Origin: Asterias amurensis
Lineage: Eukaryota; Echinodermata; Asteroidea; Forcipulatida; Asteriidae
Assembly: GCF_032118995.1 (NCBI RefSeq)
Contig: NC_092657.1
Coordinates: 362,891 to 426,890 of the forward strand
Length of the DNA stretch: 64,000 nucleotides
Direction of reading: 5' to 3'
Program-made: the position numbers and the translations under genes
Part shown: positions 15,394 to 63,714 of the stretch, piece after piece
How the letters are laid out: every line of letters begins with the position of its first letter
Numbering within the stretch: the stretch's first letter is position 1
Notes under the pieces: model-generated
The model's database searches: none
Told to the model about the DNA's origin: nothing
The model's input: the letters and a program-made list of their open reading frames with translations, nothing else

Positions 15394-18300
15394 TTAGTAA
15401 TACCCATGGTTTATATTATTGGTGGTGGGTGCGATTCCATGCAACTGCATCAAACTTATACCATTACCATATCGATTATTGGTGATATCACCGGGACGTG
15501 AACTTAGGTCACCCACACGGAATGTACCAGTTTCATTCTGATAAGCGCCGCCATTTTGGTTACCATGGCGACTAGATCCAGTATAGAAACCTTTTGGGGT
15601 GTCATTACTATGGTAACCCTCTCTTCCATCAACAACCATAGCTCGTTCGTTGCCATAGTAATCATCGACTTGTTCTTGACCTCTGACCGTTGCCCTCGGG
15701 ATGACGTAATTTGTCCCCTTTCCTCTGGTGCTGGAACTCCCATTCTGACCGTACATCACTTCCTGTGGGCGTTCTTGTTGTTGATGCCCCTGGTATATAG
15801 GATTCCTATTGAAGAATTCCTCATCGTATGGACCACGGTTACCACGCTGTTGTGTTTGGGCACGAGTCTGACGTCGTTCGGGGCTTGCATCCTTTGTTAT
15901 TAAAAGAGAAAACAATAAAAGTTACTACAAATGTTAACTCTATTCTGTATCTGTCAAATATTGCAACAACGCCCCACTGGGTATTATTTTTCAGGCATCA
16001 CAATGGCAGGCTGACTTAACTGTGCCCCCTCCTCCTCAAGAAAGTGGACATGTTTATATTATTAATCTTGAACTTAAAGGTCTCAAATGCTATAGATTTC
16101 CCAGTGTTGACATGGGATAAACTTCATTCCACAAAAGATGGCACTGGTGCCGAAAAATGGCAATGTAAGACAAAGAAGATGGCACTGGTGCCGAAAAATG
16201 GCAATGTTAGACAAAGAAGATGGCACTGGTGCCGAAAATGGCAATGTTAGACAAAGAAGATGGCACTGGTGCCGAAAAATTTGCAATGTTAGACAAAGAA
16301 GATGGCACTGGTGCCGAAAAATGGCAATGTTAGACAAAGAAGATGGCACTGGTGCCGAAAAATTGCATGTAATTCCAAGAAGATGACACTCGTGCCGAAA
16401 AATGGCAATGTGAGACAAGAAGATGGCACTAGTGCCGAAAAATGGCAATGTACGAAAAGAAGATGGCACTGGTGCCGAAAAATGGCAATGGTAGACAAAG
16501 AAGATGGCACTGGTGCCGAAAAATGGCAATGTTAGACAAAGAAGATGGCACAGGTGCCGAAAAATGGCAATGTTAGATAAAGAAGATGGCACTGGTGCCG
16601 AAGAATGGCAATGTTAGACAAAGAAGATGGTACTGGTGCCGAAAAATGGCAATGTTAGATAAAGAAGATGGCACTGGTGTCGAAAAATGGCAGTGTTAGA
16701 CAAAGAAGATGGCACTGGTGCCGAAAAATGGCAAGGTACGACAAATAAGATGGCACAGGTGCCGAAAAATGGCAATGTTAGACAAAGAAGATGGCACTGG
16801 TGCCGAAAAATGGCAATGTTAGACAAAGAAGATGGCACTGGTGCCGAAAAATGACAATATTTTAATACGGTGGTTGTTGCATATACCGTTTAAGTATTGC
16901 TTTTACTTGCCATATTTTGTTTTAATTTCCACTACAATTTAAGAATTCTGTGTTATGTTTAGTACAATTTTTAGTCTTTTTAATGAGCAAAGTCTGGGAG
17001 GGCCCATCTTTTTATGATATTTTGTTTACTTTCGTCTTTTCCTGGACGGCCTCTGCTTGTAAAAAATATTGTATTGTCCAAAGAATAAAGATAAATACAT
17101 AAGTAAACAAAACCAACACTTTTCCGGGGGTAACTTACCGGATAATCATCGGATCCAGAGCATCCAATAACGCAGGTCCAAATAATAATGAAGAGAAGAA
17201 TAAATACAGCCAGTAGCGCTTCAAGACCCGTCAAGATCGTTCCCAGAGATGGTGTGGTTTTCGTCCCCGTATCCACTAATGCATTATATAAAACAACCTC
17301 TTCGTATGTATTGTACCCCATTAGGGCAGCACATGCCAAACAGCATAGTAATACGACGGTATTCAACAACACCATCAAGTATTTCTGAGGAAAAAAATAC
17401 ACGTAAAGCATCAGCAAATTGCGGACACCTTTCAACTCATTCATCCATTTACTCATTTCAGTTTTATTAAAAAACACCAAACAACAGTCCGAAGACTAAT
17501 TGTTAAAGTTAATTGAGATATTTAGTTCAATTCAATTCAATGGATATTTATTTTAGATACTGCACTTTATGCGAAGAACTCACCACACGATTATGTCTTC
17601 GTGTCTTACAAATATAAAATGTTACTCAGTATACCATGGAGAGAAAAAAAACTGTCGTAGCCTCTATCATATAAATATGATGTGCAAAGTCGCCACAATA
17701 ATCGTATTACAACATAATAATACAACCTCTTAAGAACTTTGAAGATGGGTTTCATTTGTGTGTATAGGGATTACACCAAGACATCAAGCTTCTTAAATAA
17801 TCACCTCCATAGTTTTAATTAAGATGTTGTTGTTACTTACCAGAGGTTTGTTCCAGCAACAGCTAAGAAAAAGCTGAAGCAGTCCACTGAAGAAAGCCTG
17901 GTAATTAAACAAAATGTAATTAGGGTTACTCTTATGGAAACTAGGTTGAATCTCTAGTTTATTGCTCTATGGTTGAATCCAAACGTCACTTGCACTTGTT
18001 AGATTGTAAGCAGATTAAGAATTAATCAGATTGTTCAGCCAGAAACTATTTGATGTAATATCAGAGAAGTGCAAAGAATGACAATTGCTATCAATGATAA
18101 ATAACATTACGACAAACTTCTGTTTATGTGTATTTCATTTTTAAACAATCTAAAGGGAGAGACTTCCGTACTGTTTCACAATTTATTTTACCAAAAAAGA
18201 ATATTTTATTTGATAAAATCAGATTTTGGAAAAGTTTCCGTATCCTGCTACCACTTTTTCAAGCATTACGGAATAACATAGTTTTATTATTAAGGTTGAT

Positions 18301-37286: not shown

Positions 37287-38718
37287 CCCCCCCAGACCTG
37301 TCTTTGAATAAAGCTCCTCCAACCAACGTTTATTTCCCATAATGGGGACAGAATCTCCAGAGGATTTCCCTATAACAATGCCGCCAAACAATGTTTACCT
37401 CCTGAGAGAATAATATGTGTGGTCGATAGCATCTCCCTGTTGTTTCAGACGGCAGGTGTAGTCCTTCTAGTTCCGCTAGCTGCCCCGCAGTTGCAGGTCC
37501 AGATCCGTTAGCTGGCCCGCTGTTCTAAGCTCGTCTCTGCACAGTACATTTTGTCCTGCACCATGCAAGCACACAACACCTAATACACCATTGGCGGTCA
37601 AAGAAAAAGAAGATTTGGTAAACATGATCAATAATCTTAGTATAAGCATAGAGATAGAAGTAAGTCTACTTGACAGTTTAAAATAAAATTAATCTATTAT
37701 CCCAAAAAATGATCAGCAGAACCATCTTTGCCCAAGTAATTGACATGTAAACAAACAAATAATTGTATACAAATACAACTACAATCCTATTAATTATCAA
37801 GTACAAATAAATGAAATGCGTGAACAAACTAGTACAGGCCTATACAATACAATAATAAGTTTTTATAGCACTTTTCAAATCCAAAGCAAGATCTCAAAGC
37901 ACTTCAACAGTGTGGTCACTGGGAAATTCAGTAACTCATTCCTTAAACTATATATGAGTATAGGCCTACACTACAGCCTTTAGGCTGTGCAACAAATCAA
38001 ATATGGGCTTCTAAAAATGCTAAATCAATCATCAAGAATCATCTCTGCCCTCACAGGTGGCACCCATTTACTCTTAGGTTGAGAGAAGCAATTATAGTTG
38101 TGTCTTGTTCAGGGACACAAGTGTAGTGGCAAACAATTCTTATTTTACAAGAGGAAATAAACACAAAACAGTTAAGCGATAAATAACAAATTGAGAGATG
38201 AAATCATGAATATTTATAATATATTATTATAACTTGCATCAACAAAAAGATAAATAGAACAGGACAAATAAGAATTCAAGACGCTGGGTTATTCTTATAG
38301 CTCTGTCTTTGCTCAAACTCAGTAAAACTCAATACAAACAACAACAAATTGATTTTAAAACAAAAGATCTGATCAGACTCAGATCAGAGCAACCTGTCGG
38401 AAATAAACGACTTAGGCATCACCCATCAACCTTTTCAATGCACAAAAATAACCGTAATTTTTTACAAGATCATAACTTGACAATAAATACAAATATGATA
38501 ACATTAAAACGCTTAAAATACAAATATGATCATAATTTAGTCAAATAATCTCGTGAATGGTCAGAAAAAGCCTTCAAACTTACAATATTTGTGGGGGAAA
38601 CTACTTGTTTATCGTCAAATCTTCGCTTGGCCGACTGTCAAAATATTATCAACCTCGTGTACATTATATAGCCTCGAATTAATCTTGTTCGCCCCCACCA
38701 CAAAACACAACGGCCCTT

Positions 38719-39677
38719 ACACTGTGCACAAAGTAATGGGTACAGGAATATCGCCATATCCTGGGTCCACATCGCGAAAACGTAACGGTCTGTGTTCTCA
38801 TATACTGTGCACAAGCAATGGGTACAGGAATATTACCATATCCCGGGTTCACCAAGTCCCGTATACTGTGCATACAATGCAATGTGTAGTGGACCTGTGT
38901 TATGGCGATATTCCTACACCCATTGCTTTGTGCACAATATGGGCCTTGGTGGACCCGGGATATGGCAATATTCCTGCACCCATTGCTTTGTGCACAATAT
39001 GGGTCTTGGTGGACCCGGGATATAGCAATATTCCTGTACCCATTGCTTTGTGCACAATATGGGCCTTGGTGGACCCGGGATATGGCGATATTCCTACACC
39101 CATTGCTTTGTGCACAATATGGGTCTTGGTGGACCCGGGATATGGCAATATTCCTACACCCATTGCTTTGTGCACAATATGGGCCTTGGTGGACCCGGGA
39201 TATAGCAATATTCCTGTACCCATTGCTTGTGCACAGTATATGACAAGACAGCCCGTTACATTTACGTGCTGTGGATCCGGGATATGGTTATATTCCTGTA
39301 CCCATTGCTTGTGCACAGTATATGAGAAGACAGACCGTTACATTTTAGTGCTATGGACCCGGGATATGGCAATATTCCTGCACCCATTGCTTGTGCACAA
39401 TATATGAGAAGACAGACCGTTACATTTCCGTGCTGTGGACCTGGGATATGGCAATATTCCTGTACCCATTGCTTGTGCACAGTATATGAGAAGACAGACC
39501 GTTACATTTTCGTGCTATGGACCCGGGATATGGCAATATTCCTGCACCCATTGCTTGTGCACAGTGTATGAGAAGACAGACCGTTACATTTACGTGCTGT
39601 GGACCTGGGATATGGCAATATTCCTGTACCCATTGCTTTGTGCACCGTATACGGGCCTTGGTGGACCCGGGATATGA
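38719..39677. repeat. 60- and ~86-bp satellite with an inverted left arm
   Basis: From about 38905 the 60-bp unit (CCCATTGCTTTGTGCACAAT ... GTGGACCCGGGATATGGC) repeats about five times. From about 39226 the unit lengthens to about 86 bp by including GAGAAGACAGACCGTTACAT. The first 180 bp (38719-38900) contain the same words in reverse orientation (GTGCACAAAGTAATGGGTAC), so the whole is a foldback array. Long open frames on both strands (up to 284 codons) are repeat artefacts. Confidence 0.93.
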
Positions 39678-41771: not shown

Positions 41772-44700
41772 CTAAGAGGTTGTTGGTGTTTCGATGGGAG
41801 CAGTAAGCCTTGGGGTCTTTACAACGCCACTCTCTGTAGGCATTTGAGAGACTCGCTTTACTCCCATTTGTTGAGAAGGTGATTCTTGATGAGGTAAGGC
41901 GACCGGTGAGATAAGCTGGGGTGTGTTTGCAGATGGGACAGCCATTAGAGTCTGAGATGATTGAAGGTAACTACCATCACCAGCATGGGTAACACTTGTC
42001 ATCATTGCGGACTGTTGAAAAGAACTCTTCATACCTGTTGAGATGGTTCGACCATCTCCTCCACTCTTGGCTAACTGAACAGGCAACCGATGATTACCGA
42101 GGCTATTGTTGGCGGGTAATGCTCCGAGGGGTTTCTTTACCAGTTGGACTGGAATACTCTGTTGGAGGAGAGTGAATGGGGTAGACTGTTGTAGGTTTGT
42201 GATATGTGGAGCTTGCTGTTGTAGGTTTGTAACCAACTGTGAAGCTTGTTGTGACAGTGTAATGTTAGTTGGATTTAGATGTTGGACTGATGTTGGCTTT
42301 ACTGTAGACTGTTGTAGGTTTGTGACTATCTGTGGAGCTTGCTGTTGTAGGTTTGTAACCAACTGTGGAGCTCGTTGTGACAGTGTAATGTTAGTTGGAT
42401 TCAGATGTTGGAGTGATGTTGGCTTTACTGTAGACTGTTGTAGCTTTGTGACTATCTGTGGAGCTTGCTGTTGTAGGTTAGTGACCAACTGCGGAGCTTG
42501 CTGTGACAGTGTAATGTTAGTTGGATTCAAATGTGTGATTGAGGCCGGCTGTGCATTTGCCTGAGCTGATGACATTGTTATTTTCCCAGACGTTAGCTGC
42601 TCTAGAATCACTTGTTGAAGCTGCTGTTGCTGTTGAATATTGTTGCTGGGACCCATCAGACTACTCGAGGTACCTGGATTTGTTGTAGCAACCATGTTAC
42701 CTTGCTGAACTGGCAAACAAAGTAACTGCTGGCTTCCAGGAGCTTGGGTCAATATCTGCAATCCTTTGGATGCTAGTTTGACTGATTCCGAACCCCCAAA
42801 TGGTAAACTGCCAGTTTGATTTTGTTCTGGGGTGGCTATAAACTTTGTGGCAGTGGATAGCTGGCTCGGGTGGACTAGTCGGACTAGTTTTGTAGGGCTC
42901 CCAATGACTACCTTGGGATTTCCGTCACCTTTTACAATCTGAAGCTGTGGCTTCTGGATTACAACTGGGCTAGCTTGTCTCTGAATGGTACTCGCTGTTG
43001 CTTGAGGAAACAGTGTGGATATCTGGCCTCGGGTCCCTTGTAGATTGTCTAAGCTGCTTTGTTTGAGCACGACTGTTGATTGATTGTGATTCAAAACAGC
43101 GTTTCCGCCGAGGATTGGGACGACTGTTCGTTCAACAGGCTGGGTACTATTCGCCCGCACTTGCAGAGTTTGTTTTGGTTGAGCAAGATGCAAAACTGTT
43201 TGAGGGTTAGGCTGAGTTGGGCTTAGTAGAAGTTGGACTCCCTGAACAGTCTGCTGAGTAGTAACTACTGTAGAGGTAGGGGCTACTTGTAAAGGATGAC
43301 TCGCGACCTGTTGAATTAATTGAGTGTTTTGGTTCGTTAGAATCATTGGCACTGCACTTCCGGAATTAGGAACATTGATACCAGATTGGAGACCAACTAG
43401 TTTAGGTGTCTGGTTTGATCCAGTCTGCACTAGAATCTGTGCACCTTTGGCTGTCTGTACAAGGTGAAGTCTATTGCCTGGAGTTTGAGACAGAGTGTGG
43501 GTTCCTCCTGGCAGGGTTGCCATTGATGTCTGAGAAACAACTGGCAAGGCTGCAACTTTAACTGCTGAACTAGTGGTACAATTTGACTCTGTTAGATTGA
43601 CTGACATCTTAGGGCGATTCACAGAAGCTGTGACTGTTGTATTGGTTGATAAACTAACGGGTTGAGAAACGGTTGGAAGTCCTGCAGTCCAAGTGTTAGT
43701 AGCAGTAACTATGACCATGTTGGATGCATGTGGAGAAGTATGTACCGTTGTTGGAGCAGGTGTTGTTGCTGGTATCCCTGCCGCTTGTAACAGCTGTGGT
43801 TGAACTGTTGAAACTAATACTCCCGACGAGCCAATGACAAAATGCTGCTGTTGTTGCTGCTGCTGCAGAAGACGCTGCTGCTCTTCTTTCTTTTTCAGGA
43901 GTAATTTCTGCTGCTGTTGTTGCCGGTGAAGCTCAAGCTGTCTTTGTTGCTGCTGTAGCAGTGCAATTAGTTCCTTCTGAGAGAGATTATTGACAGGTTC
44001 TTTGGTTGATGAACGTGCTTTTGTTGGAGTTTTTGGCTTAGGGTGTTGGATTGGTTTGCCAGGGTGCTGAGATGGGCGAACAGCGGTGCTTTGTGTAGCA
44101 GCTTTTCCTTGCACCATCCTTGATAAGTTTTGAGGTAAGGTATTCCTGATAGGAGCTTGAGGAGAGGTTTTTGGTGCTGTGACCTGAGCTTTAGGAAGGC
44201 TACGGATGCACGTTACTGTTTGTGCTGGAGTGTTGAGACTACCCTTAATTGCTGGAGTAGCTGATCCACCTGCCACTGCCTGCTGTTTCTGCTGCATTTC
44301 TTTAATCTGTTGCAGGACAAATTGCTGTTGTAGGTCTGGTTTGCCTTGAAGCTGCGACCACACACTAGCGTCTACCTTGATTGTATACACACCTTGTGGT
44401 ACTGCCGCCTTGCTGCTTGAGACAGCAGAGGCTTGACTTAGAGCCGTTTGAATGGCTTTAGAAGTGGCGCTACCTTGGAGAACTTTCATGTCTTTGACGA
44501 TACCTTTTGTTTGGTCATTTATGAGACTGTTCAATGGTATGACAGGAAGTTTAGACGTTGGAACTGGAACAACCATGGATTGTGTTATTGTTGAACCAGT
44601 GTTAATTGTTGAATGTTGAGCGGTGGATAGTTTCAGGCCAGGCATTACAGATGTCACATTGGTTCCTGTTAGATACTGTGATGGTTTAGGTAGCATTTTC

Positions 44701-48700: not shown

Positions 48701-51700
48701 ATGGCCATTTTCATAGCTCTTTAAAAAAACTCATTTGAGAGAGAAAGATCGTTTATTATCACGAGGCTAAGGACAGCCACTTCAAGGTTAGAGCTACATT
48801 TTGAACTGTCACCCAGGGCACATTCCCACCTAGTCATGGAGCTGAAATAGGGTTATCCCCTTCACAGTCCAGAAGGATGTAGGCTTGGGTATCATCCACT
48901 AGGAGCCACCTACTCCTGGGGCTGAAATAGGGTTATCCCCTTCACAGTCCAGAAGGATGTAGGCTTGGGTATCATCCACTAGGAGCCACCTACTCCTGGG
49001 GCTGAAATAGGGTTATCCCCTTCACAGTCCAGAAGGATGTAGGCTTGGGTATCATCCATACAGGAAGCTGGTCGATAGAGCAGATTGCACAAACTTCCCA
49101 GCGACAAATTTGGTCCTTTGGTGGCAATAATGCGTATTTTCCAAAACAAATCAACAAATGAAATAAGGGACTCCTCACAAGTTTTAAAACTTGGGGAGGG
49201 AAGGGGGGGTGGGGTGCTGGTGGCACTATAGAACCAAATTGTGGAAGTTTGGCTAAGCATGCTGCATTGAAATGAAGTTTTCTACATGGTGTTTATCTTT
49301 GGTTATAAAAGCCTTAATTTGCAATCTTAGCCAATCTAAATTATGAACAATGTAACAATGTGTACCTGTCTAAGCCTGCTTGGTCGTAACCGGGGCGTTT
49401 CCATAGTATTAGGTTTGGGTTTGGTAGCTATCTTCTTGGATTTAGGTGTTTTCCGCTGCTTTTTTGGCGTTGGTAGATTATCTTTTGCCCTGGCTTCCAT
49501 CTCTGCTTCCTGTGTTATCAATAAAAAAAAAATCTTAATTAATAATCTGAAAAATAAAGTGAAAGCAACATGATAAAATAAAAATTTACAAAAGCCACCA
49601 ACTATGGGACTATCCACAGTCAAGGCTCAAACTGCAGGGCTTATTCTACAGAATTTATTTTACAAATCAAAATGAAAGAGAGAAGATCTATTTCATTTGT
49701 GTTTACGTGTAAGTGAATTGAAGATAATTATCACATCCACAGTCAGTATTTTTCACCAAGGAGGGCTCAACGTTTCGGACAGTATACTCTGTCGGTTGTC
49801 ATGAAACTACTGGATTCCAACTTGGCCTTGGGGTTATAAGGGAGAGTGCGCTGAGCTGTACAAGTTTATCGGTTCTTCTCAGAACCACCGTCACTCAAAA
49901 GAATCAAGAGTGCATTTTGGCGACCCCAACCAAAGCCCAACCAAGTCCACAAGTCACCGCGCTCAACCGAATACGCGATAATGCTCAACCGGTGAACAGT
50001 GTTTCTGGTTGGAGTTTGCCAAAACGCACTCCTATCTCGGTGGTGTCACCTCAAATTGTTCTTATGTTTATTGTCTTTCCCCATGCAAGTCTACAAGTTT
50101 TAAATAATTTAGAAGCATAGATTTCTCCAAATCAAAAGTAAATAGAAATAATTGATGTACCTTTTCTTTCTTAGTCTTCTTTAGTAGGTCAGGATATTTT
50201 TTCTGCCGATATATTCTCAAGTCTGCTCCACAGAATTGCGGGAAGTGAATATATGAGTTAGATTCTCCATCGATGCCTAGGATGATGGGTCGTTGCTCGT
50301 CTGCAGGTTGAGACAGGAGGCATCGTCTCACTACCATTTGAGTCTCCTGTGTCAATCAGAACAGAGAAAACAATTAATCTTGAATTGAGTTTGACTACCT
50401 CTAGCCACCAGGCTAACTAAATGGACTAGTGGTTAGACTTTTGCTCCAGCAATGCAAAGGTTAAGGTTTTGATTCCCACCTGAGTGATTTGCCTGTGGCT
50501 TTGTTCACAGAGCTCGGGGAAGTACCGAGTATACAGTGCTTAATAAACATCGGTGTAAGGGTAAAAACAAAAAGCATTTGAAATAAAATTGCACCACTTA
50601 AAATGAACCCTCTCCTGCCAGTTTCAAAGTTTTATTTAACTTGGTTATACAGTTGAGTTCTGACTGGCATCCCCTAATAAACATATTGACAAACAAGGAA
50701 TGGAGAGTGCAATCATGATGGCTAGATGGCTCAGTTGGTAGAGCGCTGGCAAGCTAATCTGGAGGTTGCAGGTTTGAATCCCGCTCATGTCAACTTTGAT
50801 TTGTTCAACTTGAAATTAATCGTTGTTAGATGTTTCAGTTAGTCCCAAGTCCAAAACCACACAGAACATCAACACCCAAAGTGTTGGATTCTGATTATAG
50901 CGATATACCTGGTCCCATATAAAGCATATTTACTTTTGATTTTTTATTTGGTTTTAATGCGCCTTGAACTCCCAGCAGAGTGGATATGTGTGCAAGTCTT
51001 TATAATCATTACCAGTGCAGTCCTCAAACCAACAAATCAAACAAAATATGAAGTTAGATTTTGACAAGTTTTGCCAGGTAAGTGTTAACATCAACAAAGT
51101 TTAAAGCAGAATCTACTTACAAATAGCTGATCACACAGTCCTTTAAGAATCCAAACTCTCTCATAATACGTCAATTCATGATACTGAACTCTGTCCAACG
51201 GGAAACTGGATCCAAGCACCTCAAAGAATCTCTCTGGTACTCCAATCTTTTCATAAACTCTTGTAGGGTCTTCAAGCTTCTCTAGAACGTGGTACCAGCC
51301 ACGAACCCACTCTCTAAGACGAGCTTCCCATACTTTGTATGGCATGGGTGGTTTCTTGCCAAGTCTAGATGGAATCAAACAGATTTAATGGTTAGTGCGT
51401 GGCAGTACTGTTAAGAGCACAGAATTCAAACTCTGGTGTTTCTAATCAGCAGAGTGTGGGTTTGAGTCCCAGTCATGACACTCGTGTCATGACTGGGACT
51501 CAAACTCTGGTGTTTCTAATCAGCAGAGTGTGGGTTTGAGTCCCAGTCATGACACTCGTGTCCTTTAGTAAGACACTTTTTCGTCCTTCGGATGGGACGT
51601 AAAACCGTTGGTCCTGTAATGCACCTAAAAGAACCCAGTTCACTTATGGTAAAGAGAAGGGATTTGTCCTGGTGGTTAGTTGCTTTGATTGACAGCATCA

Positions 51701-54700: not shown

Positions 54701-56457
54701 CAACTGTAAAGGAAGAATAATGAAAATTTTAAGATCAAGAAATCAACATCAAAGTGTTTGAAGCTAGGGTTGCCCTAGGTCGTTGCCTTAGTGGCTCTTG
54801 AAATAGTCTAATAAAAATTTACAAATTCTTTTAGTATTAAGGAGAAAACATCTTGGTGCCCTTGCCCTTTCAACGATTAGGCAAAAGGCCTACCGTAGAG
54901 GCCGCAAAAAGTTTGTACCAAAATGACCTTAGCGACCTTGATATTTGACCTATTTTCACTCAACCAAAAAGGTCAAAGTAAAGTTCATGTCCTGAACTGA
55001 TATTTCTCAATCTTTCTCATGTTAACTTGAATCAATTTTGTGAAACTTATAAGTCTTTATCTGGACATTTTCACATGAAAGAACTGGGTCAAAAATTAAC
55101 CCCAATCAATCAATGTGTAAGACTGAAAGTATGATGATAATATAGAAATGATGACTGCTCTTTGTACTGACACCCTGTTCCGACAGCTATGTCCCATAAA
55201 CCCTCTCATGATTTACAAACTAGACTTCTAACGGCTTAGGGTTATACAAATTAGGAAAATACACCAGGAGTATAGGTGGATTTTTTTTTTGAAAGTTGAA
55301 ACAAAGGGTTGTCTGAAAAACGGCGTGTAACCATAGAAATGAATCATCTCTAAATGAAAGGGTTAATCACTTGATCTTCTTTGCTTACTTTTCCTAAGCC
55401 ACATGGGATGTTTAATCCTCTCCTCATAATCCCATAGGGATTTAGTATCCACTTGATCCAGGAACGGCCAGACGAAGGATTTGCACTTATCCCCAAATAT
55501 CCCCGTCAAGATCCGATAAGCCAGCATCAGCTCATCAGATAAATCAGGGACAAAAACTAAAGCGTTTCCTCGTAATTTGGGCGTTGGCCTCTGACTTGCT
55601 GTTAAGTTTGAATCCAGGGAATTTGGCTCAACTTTTGAAGACGTTGGAATTTGAGGACTTGTTGACTCCAGGTCTATAACTTGAGGTGAATACTGGGTGT
55701 TTCCTTCGGACTTGGCCGAGCTTGGACTATTCTTAGGCCCCTGTGATGAGATTGACTGAACGTCAGCGTCCCTGCTCAGACTAGCGACCGATTTATCACT
55801 ATCCGTTAAAACGTTGATCTTCCTGTCATGTGATATAACAGTTCTATCAACAACTTCTGTGTTCGATAGGCTTAAAGTTGATGTCATATCTGTACATGGC
55901 TCATTCTTTGGTATAACTTTGTTGCCAACTACATGCATACTTGAAGTTTCATCAGGTTTTCTGACATCTTGTGGAATGTTCAATAGTTTTGCTTCGGATT
56001 TAACTTGAGAACTCGAAGACTCCGAAGAATAAGGCATGTTTCTACTTGGAGGTTCTGTGCTAAGTTGCTGGGCGTGGTTGTTACCGACTGAATTATGGTC
56101 TTGACTTAACTCATTTGGAACTAGTTTATCGGAGCATGAGGTCTGTATTGCAGAAGATCCATTGTTGCAATTTTCAACCCCAGATATTGCCGTCTCATTC
56201 ACAACGACACCTCCATGATCAGGAATGTGTGAGTGTTTGGACTCTTGTGGAGTCAGATTTTGTTCCATGTTTTCATCAACTTGAAGCAAATGATCAACAT
56301 TATTGCTCTGATTGGCGAGTTTCTTTGCTGTGCTTTCCGTCTTGTCTAAGATCACTGATTCGGTGACAGCATCGTTGACAAGGTTACCATGGTTACCTGA
56401 TTGCTTCAAAGCACCATTCACTAGAACAGAATTGTGATCTGAATTACAGCGATCCAT
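41772..56457 (-). CDS. BRD10: Bromodomain-containing protein 10 (KIAA2026) homologue
   Basis: Eleven coding exons: 55389-56457, 54535-54703, 53792-53877, 52825-53057, 52136-52296, 51121-51364, 50161-50346, 49366-49509, 47745-48641, 46799-46981 and 41772-45767, all GT-AG and in phase, encode 2455 aa. The bromodomain is at about 310-412, with an intact WPF shelf (330-332) and the acetyl-lysine-binding Asn at 387 in CYRYNG. Next come a basic coiled coil (about 470-505), a DDT/WHIM-like helical region (about 520-654), the segment with HFPQFCGAD (about 690-700), an acidic region and a glutamine/threonine-rich C-terminal half. This order, and the phrases WILKGLCD and HFPQFCGADLRIY, match what I recall of vertebrate KIAA2026/BRD10. 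The role is presumed to be chromatin reading in the nucleus; molecular function is poorly characterised in any species. The ATG context (ACAATGG) is strong. A 64-codon ORF precedes it in the leader. Confidence 0.93.
45809..45950. mobile_element. Decayed MITE of the CCCAATTTCATA family
   Basis: In the BRD10 intron just after the last exon's acceptor. TTGCTGAGCA, GCTAAGCAG and a terminal AATTGGGCCCT near 45938-45950 recall the family at 3010, 3517 and 40299, but the arms no longer match well. Confidence 0.5.
46284..46490 (+). repeat. Dispersed repeat, GGCCGTTGCCACCTACTCC family
   Basis: An intronic copy in BRD10. It shares CAAGGTGTGGGCTACAATTA, CCACCTACTCCTAGGGCTGA and GTAGGCTTGGGTATCATC with the copies at 8411 and 51781. 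A plus-strand ORF of 89 codons crossing it is repeat-derived. Confidence 0.75.
46631..46772. mobile_element. Foldback MITE, AGACCCTATTCACAA ends
   Basis: The ends AGACCCTATTCACAACAC and GCATTGTGAATAGGGTCT are complementary, about 142 bp in all. It lies in a BRD10 intron with its edge only 26 bp from the donor of exon 46799-46981, so the splice site survived an insertion next to it. Confidence 0.82.
46799..50346 (-). CDS. BRD10: BRD10 exons 7-10
   Basis: Exon 50161-50346 begins ETQMVVRRCL and contains IHFPQFCGADLRIYR, a stretch strongly reminiscent of vertebrate BRD10. Exon 49366-49509 is Lys/Pro-rich and NLS-like (PKKQRKTPKSKK). Exon 47745-48641 is a 299-residue acidic, Ser/Thr/Asp/Glu-rich linker ending in the basic GRKRK. 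Exon 46799-46981 encodes a second charged helix (KELHEKLTNLLLELTPWESK). All junctions are phase 0. Confidence 0.9.
48826..49065 (+). repeat. 80-bp tandem triplication inside a dispersed repeat
   Basis: Three copies starting at 48826, 48906 and 48986 (CCACCTACTCCTGGGGCTGA ... ATCATCCACTAGGAG), with copies two and three nearly identical. The unit is the core of the family at 8411, 46284 and 51781. It is in a BRD10 intron. Confidence 0.92.
50424..50575 (+). mobile_element. tRNA-derived SINE, fuller copy
   Basis: A-box-like TGGACTAGTGGTTAGAC, B-box-like GGTTTTGATTCCCACC, then TTCACAGAGCTCGGGGAAGT and the tail AACATCGGTGTAAGGGTAAAA. The same order occurs on the minus strand at 63790-63925 and, split, at 10500-11030. 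It lies in a BRD10 intron. Confidence 0.7.
50655..50793 (+). repeat. Single diverged copy of the 314-bp tRNA-like unit
   Basis: TTCTGACTGGCATCCCC and ATATTGACAAA precede GCTAGATGGCTCAGTTGGTA (A box) and GCAGGTTTGAATCCCGC (B box). The same order of parts occurs at each junction of the tandem array at 57179-57967, so the array unit is also dispersed as a SINE-like element. Confidence 0.7.
51121..53057 (-). CDS. BRD10: BRD10 exons 4-6, coiled coil and DDT/WHIM-like region
   Basis: Exon 52825-53057 encodes a Glu/Lys/Arg-rich coiled coil (RELELKEREDKRQK). Exon 52136-52296 (IPAIGHFLCLCQSVLELDEI ... LERAFALP) has the hydrophobic pattern of a DDT-type helix bundle. Exon 51121-51364 continues with WVRGWYHVLEKLEDP and WILKGLCDQLF, resembling the WHIM-like part of chromatin remodeller subunits such as BAZ/ISWI partners. 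The exact domain assignment is inference from pattern, not from a profile search. Confidence 0.88.
51427..51575. repeat. 74-bp direct duplication with a 38-bp perfect palindrome
   Basis: CAAACTCTGGTGTTTCTAAT recurs at 51427 and 51501. Between them, 51464-51501 reads GAGTCCCAGTCATGACAC-TC and then its exact complement. The sequence is tRNA-like repeat material in a BRD10 intron. Confidence 0.9.
51781..51975 (+). repeat. Dispersed repeat, GGCCGTTGCCACCTACTCC family
   Basis: BRD10 intron copy: GGCCACTACAAGGTGTGGGC, GGCCGTTGCCACCTACTCCT and GTAGGCTTGGGTATCTTC, closest to the copy at 46284. Confidence 0.75.
53366..53593. mobile_element. Foldback MITE, AATAAGCCTTTTTGAGGTAT ends
   Basis: The left end ATAAGCCTTTTTGAGGTATG is mirrored by CATACCTCAAAAAGGCTTAT on the right; total 228 bp. 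It is in the BRD10 intron between exons 3 and 4. The interior is more GC-rich than its surroundings (GACGCGCGCGT) and has no coding capacity. Confidence 0.9.
53792..54703 (-). CDS. BRD10: BRD10 exons 2-3, rest of bromodomain
   Basis: Exon 54535-54703 encodes residues 357-412 (VSITEFATDMRQILENCYRY...), including Asn387 of the acetyl-lysine pocket, and completes the domain. Exon 53792-53877 adds 29 residues beginning PLQEKTTLYV. The intron between them contains a MITE-like CACCAAGGCC repeat and a fragment of the AACACCATG family. Confidence 0.92.
55389..56457 (-). CDS. BRD10: BRD10 exon with start codon and first half of bromodomain
   Basis: It encodes residues 1-356 plus one base. The first 290 residues are Ser/Asn/Thr-rich and probably disordered. 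Bromodomain helix Z and the ZA loop follow (DELMLAYRIL ... VWPFLDQVD ... LWDYEERIKHPMW). The exon ends AAA-A/GTAAGC in phase 1, inside the ZA loop region. The same exon continues upstream of the ATG as leader up to an acceptor at 56584-56585. Confidence 0.93.
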
Positions 56458-56478: not shown

Positions 56479-58842
56479 TTAGCAATCATATATCTTGATA
56501 GAATTCATCATATCGAAGACGAGTTTCCTGGAATGGCCGATGATGAGCATTGGATGCAGTGGGTCATGATGCCATTCTAAGAACTGCATGAAAACAAAGA
56601 ATAAAATTTAATAAATTTGACTGTCATTTTATATTAAAACAAAACAAGTTGTGAGAAAGAAAACTCTTTTCATGAAGACGATCAAAACTTACTGATCGAA
56701 ACGTTGAGTTGTCAACCACTGGTAAGCTATCTTGCATCATGCAAAGTTTCAATCACACAAAAAAATCTTTGAAAGCACAGGCCTGACACTTCATGGAGGC
56801 AACGGAAGGCGATTGCCTCCATTGCCCCTTGCCTTGGTGCCCTTGAAATGTTCTAGTAGAAATTTACAATTTCCTCATAGGGTGCCCTTTGCCAAAAAGA
56901 AAATGCCTTGGTGCCCTTGCCCTTTCAAAAATGAAGCATACAGGCCTTAGTCATTTTGACAATTTGGTTCAAAATAATATGTGAATATTTCACTAAATGT
57001 GAGAAACTGTATGATGATGATAGACTGACATTGATGTGACAAACACAGCCTTCATCATACGCTCAGAAATTGAAGTGCATACTTTTATATGTTTTTATAT
57101 TTTTTTTTAGGGATAAGCCCAAATAAGTTTTATTACTATTATTAATTTTAGGGATATTAAATATGATTTTGAAGTTTATGGGACACCGCCAATATAGGGC
57201 TAGATAGCTCAGTTGGTAGAGCGCCGGCACGTTCATCCGGAGGTCGTTGGTTCGAATCCCACTCTAGTCAATTCTTTGTTCAACCCCCAAAATCATTTAC
57301 AAATTTACCCAGTCAGTTTCCCTTGTGGTTTATATTGATATCTGAAACAAAAAAAGTCGCATCCCCTTAAGGTGATCCCCTAGCTGCCGCTTCCCAGGTT
57401 GTATCGTAATTTGGGTGTGATCTCTGGCTACACGGCAGTTAACGGTTGTATGGCTTCTGACTGGCACCCCCGAACAAAGATATTGACAAAATAGGGACAC
57501 CGCCAATATAGGGCTAGATAGCTCAGTTGGTAGAGCGCCGGCACGTTCATCCGGAGGTCGTTGGTTCGAATCCCACTCTAGTCAATTCTTTGTTCAACCC
57601 CCAAAATCATTTACAAATTTACCCAGTCAGTTTCCCTTGTGGTTTATATTGATATCTGAAACAAAAAAAGTCGCATCCCCTTAAGGTGATCCCCTAGCTG
57701 CCGCTTCCCAGGTTGTATCGTAATTTGGGTGTGATCTCTGGCTACACGGCAGTTAACGGTTGTATGGCTTCTGACTGGCACCCCCGAACAAAGATATTGA
57801 CAAAATAGGGACACCGCCAATATAGGGCTAGATAGCTCAGTTGGTAGAGCGCCGGCACGTTCATCCGGAGGTCGTTGGTTCGAATCCCACTCTAGTCAAT
57901 TCTTTGTTCAACCCCCAAAATCATTTACAAATTTACCCAGTCAGTTTCCCTTGTGGTTTATATTGAAGTTTAAATTCCCTACAAAAAATACCTCAACTCA
58001 ACTCAATCAAGTAATATTTTATCCTTAATAAATTACATTTATTGCAATAATAACGTTGCAATCTTATTTAAACTAAAAAAAATTAAAATAAAGTGTAACA
58101 AAAATGAAGAAAAAAATACTCTTATTTCTGAGAATTCAACCTTAGAAGTTCTATCGCACTTCTGAATTTGAATTACGTCTTAAAAAAAGTATGCGCAACA
58201 TAAAAACAATTGACCCAATAATGTGTTGAGTTGCGCCGTGTACCCCCAATAGAAAAGATCTGTGTACATTAGCCCAGACAAAGCAGAGCAGTACTTTTTA
58301 CTGCTAATTTGTACTTGGCTACACGAATAGTCATATTTATTTAATTATTTGCTTGATTGAGCATCCCTCAGAAAGTTTTCAAGTCTCTCAAACTCAAGCC
58401 AGTCAGAAAGTTCAGAAAGTATCAGAAACATCTTGCCTGACATTGGTTGCATTATTTGGCTATCAATTTAATTTTATATGGGTTTATTTGACTTCCCCAG
58501 ATTCTCCTATCCAAACTGAATTGTGACCAATCGTCAACTCTAGCGAGACTTTCCACATAATGTAGACCTTATGTTTACAATCATTTCTAACTAAACAGTC
58601 TTTCTAAACTTACACACTTTTCAATCGTATTCACTTGACAAAGACCCGTTTTTCCAGCTAACGACACGGGCGCATAAACTCCTGTCCCAAAATAACACTA
58701 GAACAACTCTTAAGCCACAATCTCAACAATCAGAATTGGGACATATCCTTACCTTTTCTTTTTCTAGGAACATTTCGAGGTTTGTGTCCCGATAATGAGG
58801 CAAAGTGTTGTAAATTTGTTCAGGATCTCGGCGAACTTTCAT
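56479..58842 (-). CDS. Spliced 64-aa upstream ORF / microprotein in the BRD10 leader
   Basis: Exon 58753-58842 (30 codons from ATG at 58842) ends AAAAG/GTAAGG. It joins in phase 0 to 56479-56583 (34 codons plus TAA) after the acceptor TTTTCATGCAG. The TAA is 21 nt upstream of the BRD10 ATG on the same exon. The protein starts MKVRRDPEQIY and ends MNSIKIYDC. It is charged in its first half, and its second half has WHHDP and a moderately hydrophobic PMLIIGH segment. There is no signal peptide or clear TM. The ATG context is weak (T at -3), while the BRD10 ATG context is strong, which would permit leaky scanning. An earlier ATG at 58858 opens a short ORF in another frame. I do not recognise the family. 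Open frame across a splice junction and sensible composition argue for a real product; conservation has not been tested. Confidence 0.6.
56779..56948. repeat. Dispersed repeat, GGTGCCCTTGAAATG family
   Basis: It lies in the first BRD10 intron, bounded by AGGCCTGACAC and CATACAGGCCT, so the termini are short inverted repeats. About 170 bp. It matches 61073-61236 in reverse over its full length and 9391-9545 in the same orientation. Confidence 0.8.
57179..57967 (+). repeat. 314-bp tandem array, 2.5 copies, each with a tRNA-like head
   Basis: GGGCTAGATAGCTCAGTTGG starts at 57197, 57511 and 57825, exactly 314 bp apart, and the copies look identical. Each head has an A box (TAGCTCAGTTGG) and B box (GGTTCGAATCC). 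The acceptor stem GGCTAGA/TCTAGTC and the D stem GCTC/GAGC pair. The anticodon stem-loop is enlarged (CCGG / 9-nt loop / CCGG), U33 is replaced by C, and the T stem has a mismatch. I therefore call these SINE-type tRNA relics, not functional tRNA genes. They are in the first intron of the BRD10 transcription unit. Confidence 0.9.
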
Positions 58843-58872
58843 TCATTTTCCCCGACATGAAATCGACTGTAT

Positions 58873-58926
58873 TACCCAAAATGCATCGCGAAGGGCACCC
58901 AGAATGCAACAGCAAGCGCTACGTCA
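58873..58926. promoter_or_regulatory. Candidate BRD10 promoter: two ZNF143/Staf-like motifs and CRE half-site
   Basis: TACCCAAAATGCATCGCG (58873-58890) and ACCCAGAATGCAACA (58897-58911) both fit the core CCCA-R-AATGCA of the ZNF143/Staf (SBS) motif. TACGTCA at 58920-58926 is a CRE half-site. All lie 30-85 bp upstream of the leader ATG at 58842, as expected for a TATA-less housekeeping promoter. Binding is inferred from motif shape only. Confidence 0.55.
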
Positions 58927-60818
58927 TAGCATAATTTGCATATTATCAGTTTTTTTCGCACTGACGTCTGAGGGCGCTATGCTACCAGAGCGGTGTGTGG
59001 AAAAAGTAACGGTTCCACCAAGGGGCTTTTTGTTACCGGCTTAAAGGGGCGTTACAAAAAAGACCAATGAAGAAACAAATAATAACTGAATTTACACCGG
59101 ACCCGTTGTAAACGCAAAATGAACACTTTTGAACCGAATAAAACATGAACTGTGTTTCTTTCTCTCCACGTTTTTGTTCACATTTTCCAAAAACTATCAG
59201 CGGCCCCATTTTTGTTCCATTTGAAAAAATAGTGGAGGGAGTTTTACATGTGTACATCCAAAAACAAAGGGAAGAAATAACATGTGCAAACTTTTACTTG
59301 AAAAGGAAAATAACAAAGCTGTTAAAATCGCACCATGGTTTATTCAATATTTCAATCAAACTTCATAATTACATCTTATGATTACTTTATGTTTGAAACA
59401 AAGACTAAAAATGAGATACCTTTAATTATTGAAGGCATTACTTAATTTGTATATGAATTTTGCATAGATAGACACAATTAATCTCTATAGTAGGCACTTT
59501 GGTCTAATTAACTTTTACAACAGTAATTTGTATTTAACATAAATGAAGAAAAAAAAGAAGAGGCCAACATGAAAATAATAAATACACTTTGATTGAGCCA
59601 TCACCAACATTACTTTGTGACCAATTACATCATGATTTCCTTTATAAAATAATTAAACAATTATTAAATGATAACAGAAAGTTTAAAAAGAGCCAAGGCA
59701 TCAAAATGCTTTACATTTCTAAACTAGAGCAGAGTACAATAATCAAGAAACCTCAAAATACTTTTCAACAAACTTTCACTGCCATTCTTTCCTGTATTTT
59801 CTTTCTACATTCCAGACAAGATAATTAACCCTCGGAACAAAACCCAGAAAATTTATCATTAGTACAAGGGCTAACTTACATGCCTTTCATGCCATTTAAA
59901 AACACTTTTGTGGAAGTCAGATTGAAGTAGAAAGAATATTGTACCCCCAATTCATAGTTATATAGTTCACACGCAAGTTTAGAACAAGATTTTTGGTCTC
60001 TGCCCCATTATATACATCCCTCTGATCTGCAGTAAGAGTGGATAGTTTTGAAGTCTTGAAAGTAAATAATTGTTGACTTTTTAAAACAAATAATAATCGC
60101 ATCTTTAACTATTATTTCTCTTATAATTAAAATTTCTAAATTCTAAAAATTATACTACGATAATCTGAATAAAGGATCTATATCAGAAATTTGTAAAAAA
60201 AAATTCCTTCAAAAACATATTGCTTGATCGGTTTGAGTTGATTCTGTGTGGAATATTTTAAGACTAAATTATAAACCTGTCTGTAACAATCTTTACCCCA
60301 AAACATTTATTGAGAAACTCTCTATTTAACACGATAATGTAATAATGGAAGACAGGTCCGGCTGTGGCTCTTGTAAAAGCCTCAATTTGAATGCTGTTGT
60401 TTCACCCAAAAGCCACAGCCAAGATTCAGAATTGGCTTTATTTGTGTGCAAAGTGTAACCTTTTTATCCCCAAAGGTGACTTAAGTCGCCTGAGCACAAG
60501 GACATTTGTGACAAAGCTGTAGTTTTAATCAATGCCACCCTCCATTCCATGCTTGCCACCAAAGGAAAGAGAAAGATCTGATCTTTTCAACGATAGTTAA
60601 AATAAAATACAGTTGTTAGGATGCAAGTACTTCAAATTGGAGTTGAAAGATCTGAAATACCAAACACCTACAGAGCGCCATATGGTTTGGTGCAAAAAAG
60701 TGTTTAAGTTTTACAGAAAACACTAGGAAACAAACTCCTTGAACTCCCCCTCAACCAATAAATGAAACATTTGAAAATGTTGTGACACATCTCCTTCTGA
60801 AAGACAACCTTTGAACCT
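58927..60818. other. Spacer between BRD10 and the carboxypeptidase gene
   Basis: Both genes run on the minus strand. The left part should hold the upstream promoter region of BRD10, the right part the 3' UTR of the peptidase. AT-rich, with no ORF over 80 codons and no domain; nothing else is recognised. Confidence 0.5.
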
Positions 60819-63714
60819 TTAAGCCACTTCTAAGAGAATGCTTGATGCTGATTGGATAGTGAAGATAGCGATTGATAATTGCTTCTTGACGAGCTCCCAT
60901 TTCTCAGGGTCAGGGTTGTTATCGATGTCAAACATAGAGTCCACGATTCCAGGGAATTTATCGCTGGCGTAGCTGTCTCGACTGCTTGGTGCAAATACAA
61001 TGTGCCTGGGATGAAGAACAAGGTAAAATAAGTAGGATTTAAACTTTGCATGGTGGAAATACGATATAGTAACAGGCCTGTATGCTTCGTTTTTGAAAGG
61101 GCAAGGGCACCAAGGCATTTTCTCTTTGGGAAAAGGGCACCCTATGAAGAAATTGTAAATTTCTACTGGAGCATTTCAAGGGCACCAAGGCAATGGCAAC
61201 AATCGCCTCCGTTGCCTCCATGAAGTGTCAGGCCTGTAGTAAGGTTTGCGGTAACATCATGTAATGACTATCTCTAAATGAGTTGGGGTTGTTTTGAAAA
61301 GAACCTTTGATTCCAACTCGACGTTTCGATCAGTAGATTGTCTTTCTCAAGAAGACGATCAGAGCATACTGATCAAAACGTTGAGTTGAACCACCCCAAC
61401 TCATTTAGAGATAGTCATTACATGGTGTGGCCACAAACCTTTCCATAAGGAACATAAACTCAAAGTCAAATTCAATTTATATGTGACTTATTGGTAACTG
61501 TATGAGTTAATTACACTATGTTTCTGTCGTCATAGAATCAAAGTTAAGATATTTAATCCAGCAGGTTTCTTTAATACGACAAAAATGATTTTATAGTGTG
61601 ATGGCAAACTTAGTCTCCAGTCTGTTTTTTTCCTCACCATTGAGACTTTTAACCCATTGCAAATTTGAAAAAGATTTGTTTTTATAAAACAAAATTATGT
61701 GAGATTCTTCAACATCACAAGACTCTGGACGGCCACTTCAAGGTGAGGGCTGTCATCACCAAGGGTACGTAAAGATGTAGGCATGGGTATCATCCACTAT
61801 ATTGCACTGTCTTGGAAATATTTCCCCTTGTGATTTAACCTAAAGAGTAAAGAGACAACTTACCTGACAAAAGGACGATCCGGCAGACCTTGGACGTCGA
61901 TAAAAGCTCTCTCAAACATGTGCATTTGGTCGTTTAACATTCGTACCTGTAGAACACTAAATAAAAAACAAGAAAAAGAAACATGATTTGTGGTCCTTTG
62001 TAAAACGCTGGCACATTGTATCTTGTACATTGGTTGATCTACATGTCACTGGTGTTGGCTTTAAACTGTAAACTTTTCAGGCTATTTCAGCACAAATTTT
62101 CTGGTTTTTTTATGTAGACCAAAGAGAGCCACTTCTTCAAATCGGTGGCTTTTAGGGCTTTTTTTTTCACTAAGCACATACAAAAAAGTGTGAATTCCAA
62201 AAAGAGTCTAGACGAACATATGGATCCTATGATTATCTTGAAGTGCTACCACTAGGTTCCTTGGTTAATACTCAGTGGTGTAAGGGTAAAAACAATTTGT
62301 TATCATTTTCACTTGCAAAATCATCATCTATTAAATACGTACTCAGTCTTATCTGCTTCTTCAACTCTCAGTTGGAACGCATTGGCAGCTTCAGTCAACT
62401 TGTTTACAGCAGCCTGCATATCATCTGGAAAAAATATCATAAGTCATTCATGACAACTTTTTCCATTTACAACTTTTAATGAGGTGAGAGCAGACCTACC
62501 GGGTAAATTTCCATTTTTCATCAAGTTTTTAGGCTGTATCTGCTTTGGCAGCTATGGTTACAGTGACAAATGTTGTTAAGGGAGTTGCTAAGACCATCCA
62601 ACACTCCAACCAAGATGATGTGGAAATCTAGCCGTAGTTATAAATGGTAAGTATGCTGCCCCCTAATGTACCTAACGATCTCCCATTGAAACGCTTTAGG
62701 CCTATCACTGCTTGAAACATCAACGTCAAAACTTTGCACTTGTGAAGCAAGACAAAACATCCAGCACACAGTTGTTTCCTTTCAGTTGCAGTATAGAACA
62801 AAAAAGTCCATTGGTTAATCATCGCTTGAAGGTGCTGTGTCGTCATGATCAAAGCAGGCCTTTGGCTGTACATGTACACTCTCACCCAGTTACAGCATGC
62901 ATCACCCACCCTCTGTATTATATCTATGGAGAGAACCTGCGCTACAGGTCTGCTTTAATCATAGACACAGCCCTTTTATGAACTCTCACCCAGTTACAGC
63001 ATGCATCACCCACCCTCTGTATTTTATCTATGGAGAGAACCTGCGCTACAGGTCTGCTTTAATCATAGAAACAGCCCCTTTATGAACTCTCACCCAGTTA
63101 CAGCATGCATCACCCACCCTCTGTATTATATCTATGGAGAGAACCTGCGCTACAGGTCTGCTTTAATCATAGACACAGCCCCTTTAACAAGTTTCTAGAT
63201 CTTAAAAATACTCACCGAATGAGATTTCTTCTTGAAAATTTCAAAATGCCAAACTAAGCGTGCACTGAAAGAGCTCTGGGGTTGATTTCACAAAGAGTTA
63301 GGACTAGCCCTAACTTAGAACTAGTCCTAGGAGATTTTAAAAAACTAAGGCTAGTCCTAAGTTTGGACAAGTAACTCGTCCCAACTCAAGATAAGACAAG
63401 TCTTAACTCTTTGTGAAATTCACGCCAGGAGTTTCTAGATCTTAAATGCTCTCACCGAAAGAGATTCCTTCTCGAATGAGTCTCTGTCCGTAACTTCCTT
63501 CTCGAAGATTCTCGTAATATTCCTTGACGTATTCCGCGTAGACCGCTACATCCATAGGCAGTATGATAGACTCCGCTAAGTTACGTGCAATCTCCGCAAC
63601 AAGCTGAGTCATTGCTCGATGATATTTGAAACCAGGATCGTAGTATCGGTCGACTAACTTGAAGGTCTCGTAGACGGAGTGGTACATGGGGTAGCCAGAA
63701 ATTGGGATTCCATT
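60819..63714 (-). CDS. FOLH1-like: Glutamate carboxypeptidase II / NAALADase-like, C-terminal exons (5' part off window)
   Basis: Four exons, 63456-63714, 62343-62424, 61864-61956 and 60819-61005, in phase, encode the last ~200 residues of an M28 zinc peptidase. YHSVYETF carries the Tyr-His pair matching human GCPII Y552/H553, where the His is a zinc ligand. MLNDQMHMFERAFID and GLPDRPFVRHIVFAPSS are hallmark C-terminal phrases. In human GCPII a Lys-Tyr pair (699/700) contacts the glutamate side chain; here the pair is Ser-Tyr (SRDSYASDKFPG), so one substrate contact differs. The family cleaves C-terminal glutamate from N-acetyl-aspartyl-glutamate or folyl-polyglutamate at the cell surface. 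The N-terminal TM anchor and the metal-binding core lie beyond the right edge, so FOLH1 and NAALAD2 cannot be separated. There is no gene break: the protein ends LLEVA and then the stop, as in the family. Confidence 0.95.
61073..61236. repeat. Dispersed repeat, GGTGCCCTTGAAATG family, inverted copy
   Basis: In the last intron of the peptidase gene, bounded by CAGGCCTGTATG and TCAGGCCTG. It is the reverse complement of 56779-56948. Confidence 0.8.
61241..61442. mobile_element. Foldback MITE, AGGTTTGCGGTAACATCATG family
   Basis: AAGGTTTGCGGTAACATCAT ... AGATAGTCATTACATGGTGT ... CCACAAACCTT form terminal arms of about 60 bp that pair. The centre carries CTCGACGTTTCGATCAGTAG and its inverted partner CTGATCAAAACGTTGAG. 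Related to 21143-21267. The central GATCGAAACGTCGAGTTG word also occurs near 32098-32116 and 56695-56712. Confidence 0.82.
61722..61802 (+). repeat. Partial dispersed repeat, AAGGTG-GGGCT family
   Basis: A short fragment (GGACGGCCACTTCAAGGTGA ... GTAGGCATGGGTATCATCCA) of the family at 8411, 46284, 48826 and 51781, in an intron of the peptidase gene. Confidence 0.6.
62878..63185. repeat. 104-bp tandem repeat, three copies, in a peptidase intron
   Basis: ACTCTCACCCAGTTACAGCA starts at 62878, 62982 and 63086. The units differ by only a few bases. Short plus-strand ORFs running through it simply repeat the same peptide and are artefacts. Confidence 0.95.
63278..63426. mobile_element. Foldback MITE, GATTTCACAAAGAGTT family, copy 2
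   Basis: The ends GATTTCACAAAGAGTTAGGA and TTAACTCTTTGTGAAAT are complementary. The interior has repeated CTAGTCCTAAG words. Its right end is 29 bp from the donor of the peptidase exon ending at 63456. Copy 1 is at 37151-37286. Confidence 0.88.

Follow-up and report, generated by a model that had tools for sequence, protein, structure and literature searches.

Two kinds of described arrangement come closest to the one reported here. In the first, upstream open reading frames (uORFs) regulate the main frame of animal messengers (PMC7889888); evidence for a conserved peptide is given, in the available part of that article, for 0.44 per cent of translated human uORFs (at least ten codons) and 0.80 per cent of translated fly uORFs. 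According to the available sections of a second article, uORFs that permit reinitiation are usually shorter than 30 codons in mammals, though exceptions have been described, and the spacing between a uORF and the ORF that follows governs how likely an initiator tRNA is to be regained (PMC5972666). In the second kind of arrangement, the upstream frame of a bicistronic mRNA encodes a microprotein, as in SLC35A4/STREMI (PMC13303939).

The locus compared with these systems lies in a 64-kb window (C10:362891-426890) of a 491.5-Mb, 23-contig starfish genome; positions below are those of the window. On the predicted messenger of BRD10, a 64-codon ORF with a product of 64 aa crosses a splice junction on the minus strand. 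The parts of the locus are as follows (slashes mark splice junctions).

58753 to 58842, minus strand: first part of the uORF, 90 nt, from the ATG at 58842 through 30 codons (MKVRRDPEQIYNTLPHYRDTNLEMFLEKEK) to a phase-0 donor.
58747 to 58757, minus strand: putative donor AAAAG/GTAAGG (junction 58753/58752), octamer AAGGTAAG.
56584 to 58752, minus strand: putative intron of the BRD10 5′ leader, containing three tRNA-Asn-like copies on the plus strand.
56584 to 56605, minus strand: putative acceptor with pyrimidine tract TTTATTCTTTGTTTTCATGCAG, 12 of 15 pyrimidines.
56479 to 56583, minus strand: second part of the uORF, 34 codons (FLEWHHDPLHPMLIIGHSRKLVFDMMNSIKIYDC) and the TAA at 56481-56479, in the BRD10 frame.
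55389 to 56457, minus strand: opening coding piece of BRD10, which runs from the ATG into the bromodomain, with a donor AAAA/GTAAGC read by eye; the ORF runs on to 55363.
51115 to 51369 (C10:414005-414259), minus strand: BRD10 exon region encoding the KIAA2026 helical domain, by which the gene was identified.

All of the uORF positions in the original prediction (ATG, donor, acceptor, TAA and BRD10 ATG) were reproduced on the minus strand. Its reading of the start contexts was also right: the uORF ATG is weak (T at -3, A at +4) and the BRD10 ATG strong (A at -3, G at +4). The TAA is followed by 21 nt and then by the BRD10 ATG at 56457, and in the predicted spliced sequence the uORF is an AUG-to-stop frame 5′ of the main ATG without overlap, as in the definition of a regulatory uORF. 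We consider the best single explanation, and probably the correct one, to be that this is a long translation-damping uORF in a two-exon leader of starfish BRD10.

Two features of the leader had been overlooked in the original prediction, namely its crowding by further upstream ATGs (listed below) and the frame that the uORF shares with BRD10, with a single TAA and seven codons between them. The shared frame and the lone TAA would fit an origin of the uORF as a former N-terminal part of BRD10, with the TAA and the seven codons stemming from a nonsense change or read-through and a longer BRD10 made once or still. By chance a frame is shared in one case out of three, BRD10 has a strong-context ATG of its own and the peptide has no similarity to Pfam domains, and we regard this origin as very improbable.

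The downstream gene was confirmed as BRD10/KIAA2026, since both a bromodomain (3.8e-15, hand-joined from two exons) and the KIAA2026 helical domain (PF23450, E 8.9e-29) were found. Across the genome the helical domain was detected in this gene alone, as two exon pieces, and starfish BRD10 has several coding exons. Its last large exon (42106-42564) contains internal repeats (TNLQQQAPQIVT units), and the opposite strand there carries an open frame. Elsewhere in the window, open frames of short repeated peptide units at 38553-39407 and 16083-16592 are probably minisatellite-like DNA, and an ORF at 11087-12097 (minus strand) resembles sugar/MFS transporters (PF00083, E 2.5e-7).

The two-exon leader proposed earlier is plausible, given a strong donor and a good acceptor, and we infer splicing from 58753 to 56583 from the sites themselves. 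The acceptor reads ...TTTTCATGCAG/TTC at 56584/56583. Counting both strands of the 64-kb window, the donor octamer AAGGTAAG has two copies and the pattern [AC]AGGT[AG]AG has seven; the same GTAAGG apparently ends the bromodomain exon near 54.5 kb. Acceptors of the YAG type with at least 11 of 15 pyrimidines are commoner than the octamer (249 of 3386 in the window, about 1.9 per kb), and a second AG follows the leader acceptor, ending 7 nt beyond it. Just upstream of exon 1 is a pair of promoter-like motifs.

58875 to 58908 (58908-58898 and 58885-58875), minus strand: two TGCATTYTGGG copies, a possible core promoter.

These copies may resemble a ZNF143-type promoter site. The CpG observed/expected ratio is 1.16 at 58800-58999 and 0 to 0.42 over the windows of 59200-59799, which supports a promoter weakly because some intron windows reach 1.0-1.5 too. 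If the main transcription start site (TSS) were in exon 2 or the intron, or if exon 1 spliced elsewhere, the 64-codon ORF would rarely or never be found in one mRNA. The frequency of similar acceptors, the second AG and the derivation of splicing from site sequences leave room for such an error in the leader model. Against it are the rarity of the donor octamer, the fitting phase and the promoter-like motifs, and we consider it quite improbable. The RNA fold of the exon 2 leader has a z of -1.69 (10 of 200 shuffles fold equally well or better).

Further upstream on the same strand is a gene in which two exon pieces (60822-62045, minus strand) match a transferrin-receptor-like dimerisation domain (PF04253, E 6.9e-8 and 6.4e-8). 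Exon 1 is not obviously part of that gene, because its last domain piece lies near 60.8 kb. The three tRNA-Asn(GTT)-like copies in the leader intron (57198-57898, plus strand) run antisense to BRD10 and are spaced at 314 bp. Recent duplication of these 314-bp units looks likely because the first two are identical (314/314) and the third matches at 190/314 positions, ungapped; the copies may be a tRNA-derived repeat instead of working genes.

To judge how often an ORF of this length arises by chance, we made 3000 dinucleotide shuffles of the leader per assumed TSS; the actual TSS is not fixed, so the chance figure is a range. ORFs of at least 64 codons were found in 24 (TSS 58860), 49 (58880), 91 (58900), 162 (58950), 263 (59000) and 315 (59050) cases per 3000, corresponding to 0.8-3 per cent for a TSS from 58860 to 58900 and to 0.8-10.5 per cent overall. 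When donors and acceptors of the window were joined at random, 362 of 20,000 draws yielded an ORF at least this long, a denominator that includes some draws skipped for lying too near the ends. The original prediction held that chance uORFs rarely stay open across a junction, which holds in part only, the frequency reaching 10.5 per cent for the farthest start site assumed (TSS 59050). The uORF is long for a chance uORF, and we counted this against a plain damping uORF.

Codon usage leans modestly towards coding, short of proof. On the full codon score the uORF outscores 97.6 per cent of 1444 noncoding windows (2.4 per cent reach it), and on the synonymous score it is above 95.7 per cent of them (4.3 per cent reach it). 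The noncoding regions were hand-picked within the window and are presumed noncoding. Among kinase windows (n = 138), 16 per cent (full) and 28 per cent (synonymous) score at or below the uORF, and among BRD10 windows (n = 57) the figures are 68 and 88 per cent. The training sets were small, comprising twenty-six kinase loci (5639 codons; four of thirty loci were left out for stops), three BRD10 stretches (1978 codons) and nineteen helicase loci (1503 codons; eleven of thirty were left out, five with stops and six open on both strands). Coding/noncoding likelihood ratios from six hold-out tests were 1.08, 7.65 and 6.23 for the full score and 8.41, 3.42 and 3.19 for the synonymous score. Open frames from shuffled leaders with 60 codons or more (n = 1075) reached the uORF's score in 3.7 per cent (full), 9.8 per cent (synonymous) and 2.1 per cent (both) of cases; for order-3 Markov ORFs (n = 783) the full and synonymous figures were 0.13 and 0.26 per cent, and for ORFs of at least 50 codons from presumed noncoding DNA of the window (n = 45) they were 4.4 and 4.4 per cent.

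Comparisons among frames gave a more mixed result. The uORF's own frame has the top full score among the six frames. On the synonymous score, frame +1 reaches 0.09 versus 0.057 for the uORF frame, and the two parts of the uORF score -0.027 (exon 1) and 0.132 (exon 2). The proportion of RNY codons is 0.25, 0.27 and 0.19 in frames 0, 1 and 2 (kinase mean 0.31) and does not single out the uORF frame.

Searches for relatives of the peptide covered protein families, structures and genomes. Pfam returned no family for the 64-aa product at E up to 10 and none for its exon parts at E up to 1, and this agrees, together with the PDB search, with the earlier statement that the peptide fits no family. The PDB search gave SART3 as a lone chain at E 0.63, which we rejected (best domain i-Evalue 24). 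Neither part of the uORF showed a second copy or paralogue among the best candidates scored across the 491.5-Mb, 23-contig genome; each matched its own place alone, and a repeat or paralogue origin was rejected. There were 32 pattern matches in GTDB genome contigs and four in viral contigs, none of them a confirmed relative. A text search of the literature with an 8-residue piece of the peptide gave no match, and among the listed papers that mention KIAA2026/BRD10 no title or abstract opening concerned an upstream ORF of the gene.

These results bear on the main rival explanation, a genuine selected microprotein (64 residues, about 7.9 kDa) co-transcribed with BRD10, with ribosomes getting to BRD10 through leaky scanning and, following the shorter uORFs, through reinitiation. 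The coding-leaning codon usage argues for such a peptide, as do a frame that stays open across a strong donor and a good acceptor and a varied composition in which charged and aromatic residues and a single Trp occur. Rough arithmetic with the base rate, the chance length and the codon ratio gives 0.15-0.45. On the other side are the weak context of its start, preceded at 4 nt by an ATG in better context, the failure to find a family or relative in Pfam, PDB, the starfish genome, GTDB or viral contigs, the low base rate (PMC7889888) and the one neutral hold-out test of six (likelihood ratio 1.08). We set the microprotein as unlikely because the frame results (frame +1, exon 1 and RNY) also count against it. 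It is correspondingly doubtful that starfish, and perhaps further deuterostomes, make an undescribed microprotein alongside a chromatin reader. If selection does act on the peptide, the locus would count as an additional bicistronic gene from outside the vertebrates and offer an initial way into how BRD10, on which little has been published, is translated. Otherwise the leader is a further example of one rich in upstream ATGs, of use chiefly as a warning against reading coding potential from a single genome.

The further ATGs and short uORFs of the leader are the following.

58886 and 58858, minus strand: ATGs 5′ of the uORF start (in an mRNA from about 58900), adequate and weak, respectively.
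58820 to 58846, minus strand: overlapping 8-codon uORF with an adequate ATG at 58846 (A at -3), 4 nt before 58842.
58773, minus strand: adequate ATG in the frame of the 64-codon ORF.
56564 to 56575, minus strand: 3-codon uORF (MAS) lying within the 64-codon ORF, with a strong-context ATG and a stop 106 nt ahead of the BRD10 ATG.
56508 to 56567, minus strand: 19-codon uORF with an adequate-context ATG at 56567.
56550, 56511 and 56508, minus strand: ATGs in the frame of the 64-codon ORF.
56489, minus strand: weak ATG whose frame overlaps the BRD10 start.

Depending on the assumed TSS (58860 to 59050), the leader contains 10-14 upstream ATGs versus shuffle means of 6.6-10.9, and 4-11 per cent of shuffles reach the observed number; the leader is therefore not kept clear for scanning. 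The original prediction also held that the arrangement suits leaky scanning or reinitiation. Its start contexts were right, but a ribosome that scanned past the uORF start would have to pass other ATGs, one of them strong. Reinitiation at BRD10 would seldom follow the 64-codon ORF, because it is 64 codons long and ends 21 nt before the BRD10 ATG (by the rule in the available sections of PMC5972666). The 3-codon uORF (106 nt) and the 8-codon uORF, whose stop is 193 nt before the BRD10 ATG in the spliced leader, would suit reinitiation better.

Because the long ORF disfavours reinitiation and the short uORFs fit it better, the leader would most simply damp BRD10 translation. Ribosomes that start at 58842 would stop 21 nt before the BRD10 ATG and mostly be lost, making the long ORF a sink. 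Others would begin on the short uORFs close by, the 8-codon one at 58846 or the 3-codon one at 56575, and could then reinitiate more easily at BRD10. Together the upstream ATGs may hold BRD10 output low, possibly in a stress-adjustable way, and any effect of the uORF would come from the act of translation and not from the peptide.

In favour of the damping uORF we counted the many upstream ATGs, the weak ATG of the ORF, the adequate ATG 4 nt before it and the strong ATG inside it. We also counted the length and spacing that disfavour reinitiation, the missing family or paralogue, the low base rate, the 0.8-3 per cent shuffle frequency, the higher synonymous score of frame +1, the score of the exon 1 part (-0.027) and the flat RNY. 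Counted against it were the coding-leaning codon scores, the likelihood ratios of 1.08-8.41 and the ORF length.

Compared with the regulatory uORFs of animals, as described in the available part of PMC7889888, the starfish uORF is alike in being an AUG-started frame wholly 5′ of the main ATG, in its weaker start context and in having several upstream ATGs in its leader. It differs in being longer than the reinitiation-permissive kind, spliced, coding-leaning and in the frame of the main ORF. The microprotein uORFs of the SLC35A4/STREMI set were chosen, in the available text of PMC13303939, for their ribosome footprints and signs of purifying selection, and for STREMI the protein itself has been shown, whereas the starfish uORF is known from sequence alone. 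Downstream coding sequences in that set are often intronless and retroposed, in contrast to the several coding exons of starfish BRD10, and the main text, as available, does not mention KIAA2026 or BRD10. With respect to BRD10/KIAA2026 itself, the upstream peptide matches no Pfam domain and the downstream starfish gene has both domains. What the locus has in common with bicistronic mRNAs such as SLC35A4/STREMI (PMC13303939) is a small upstream and a large downstream ORF on one mRNA, which is predicted here.
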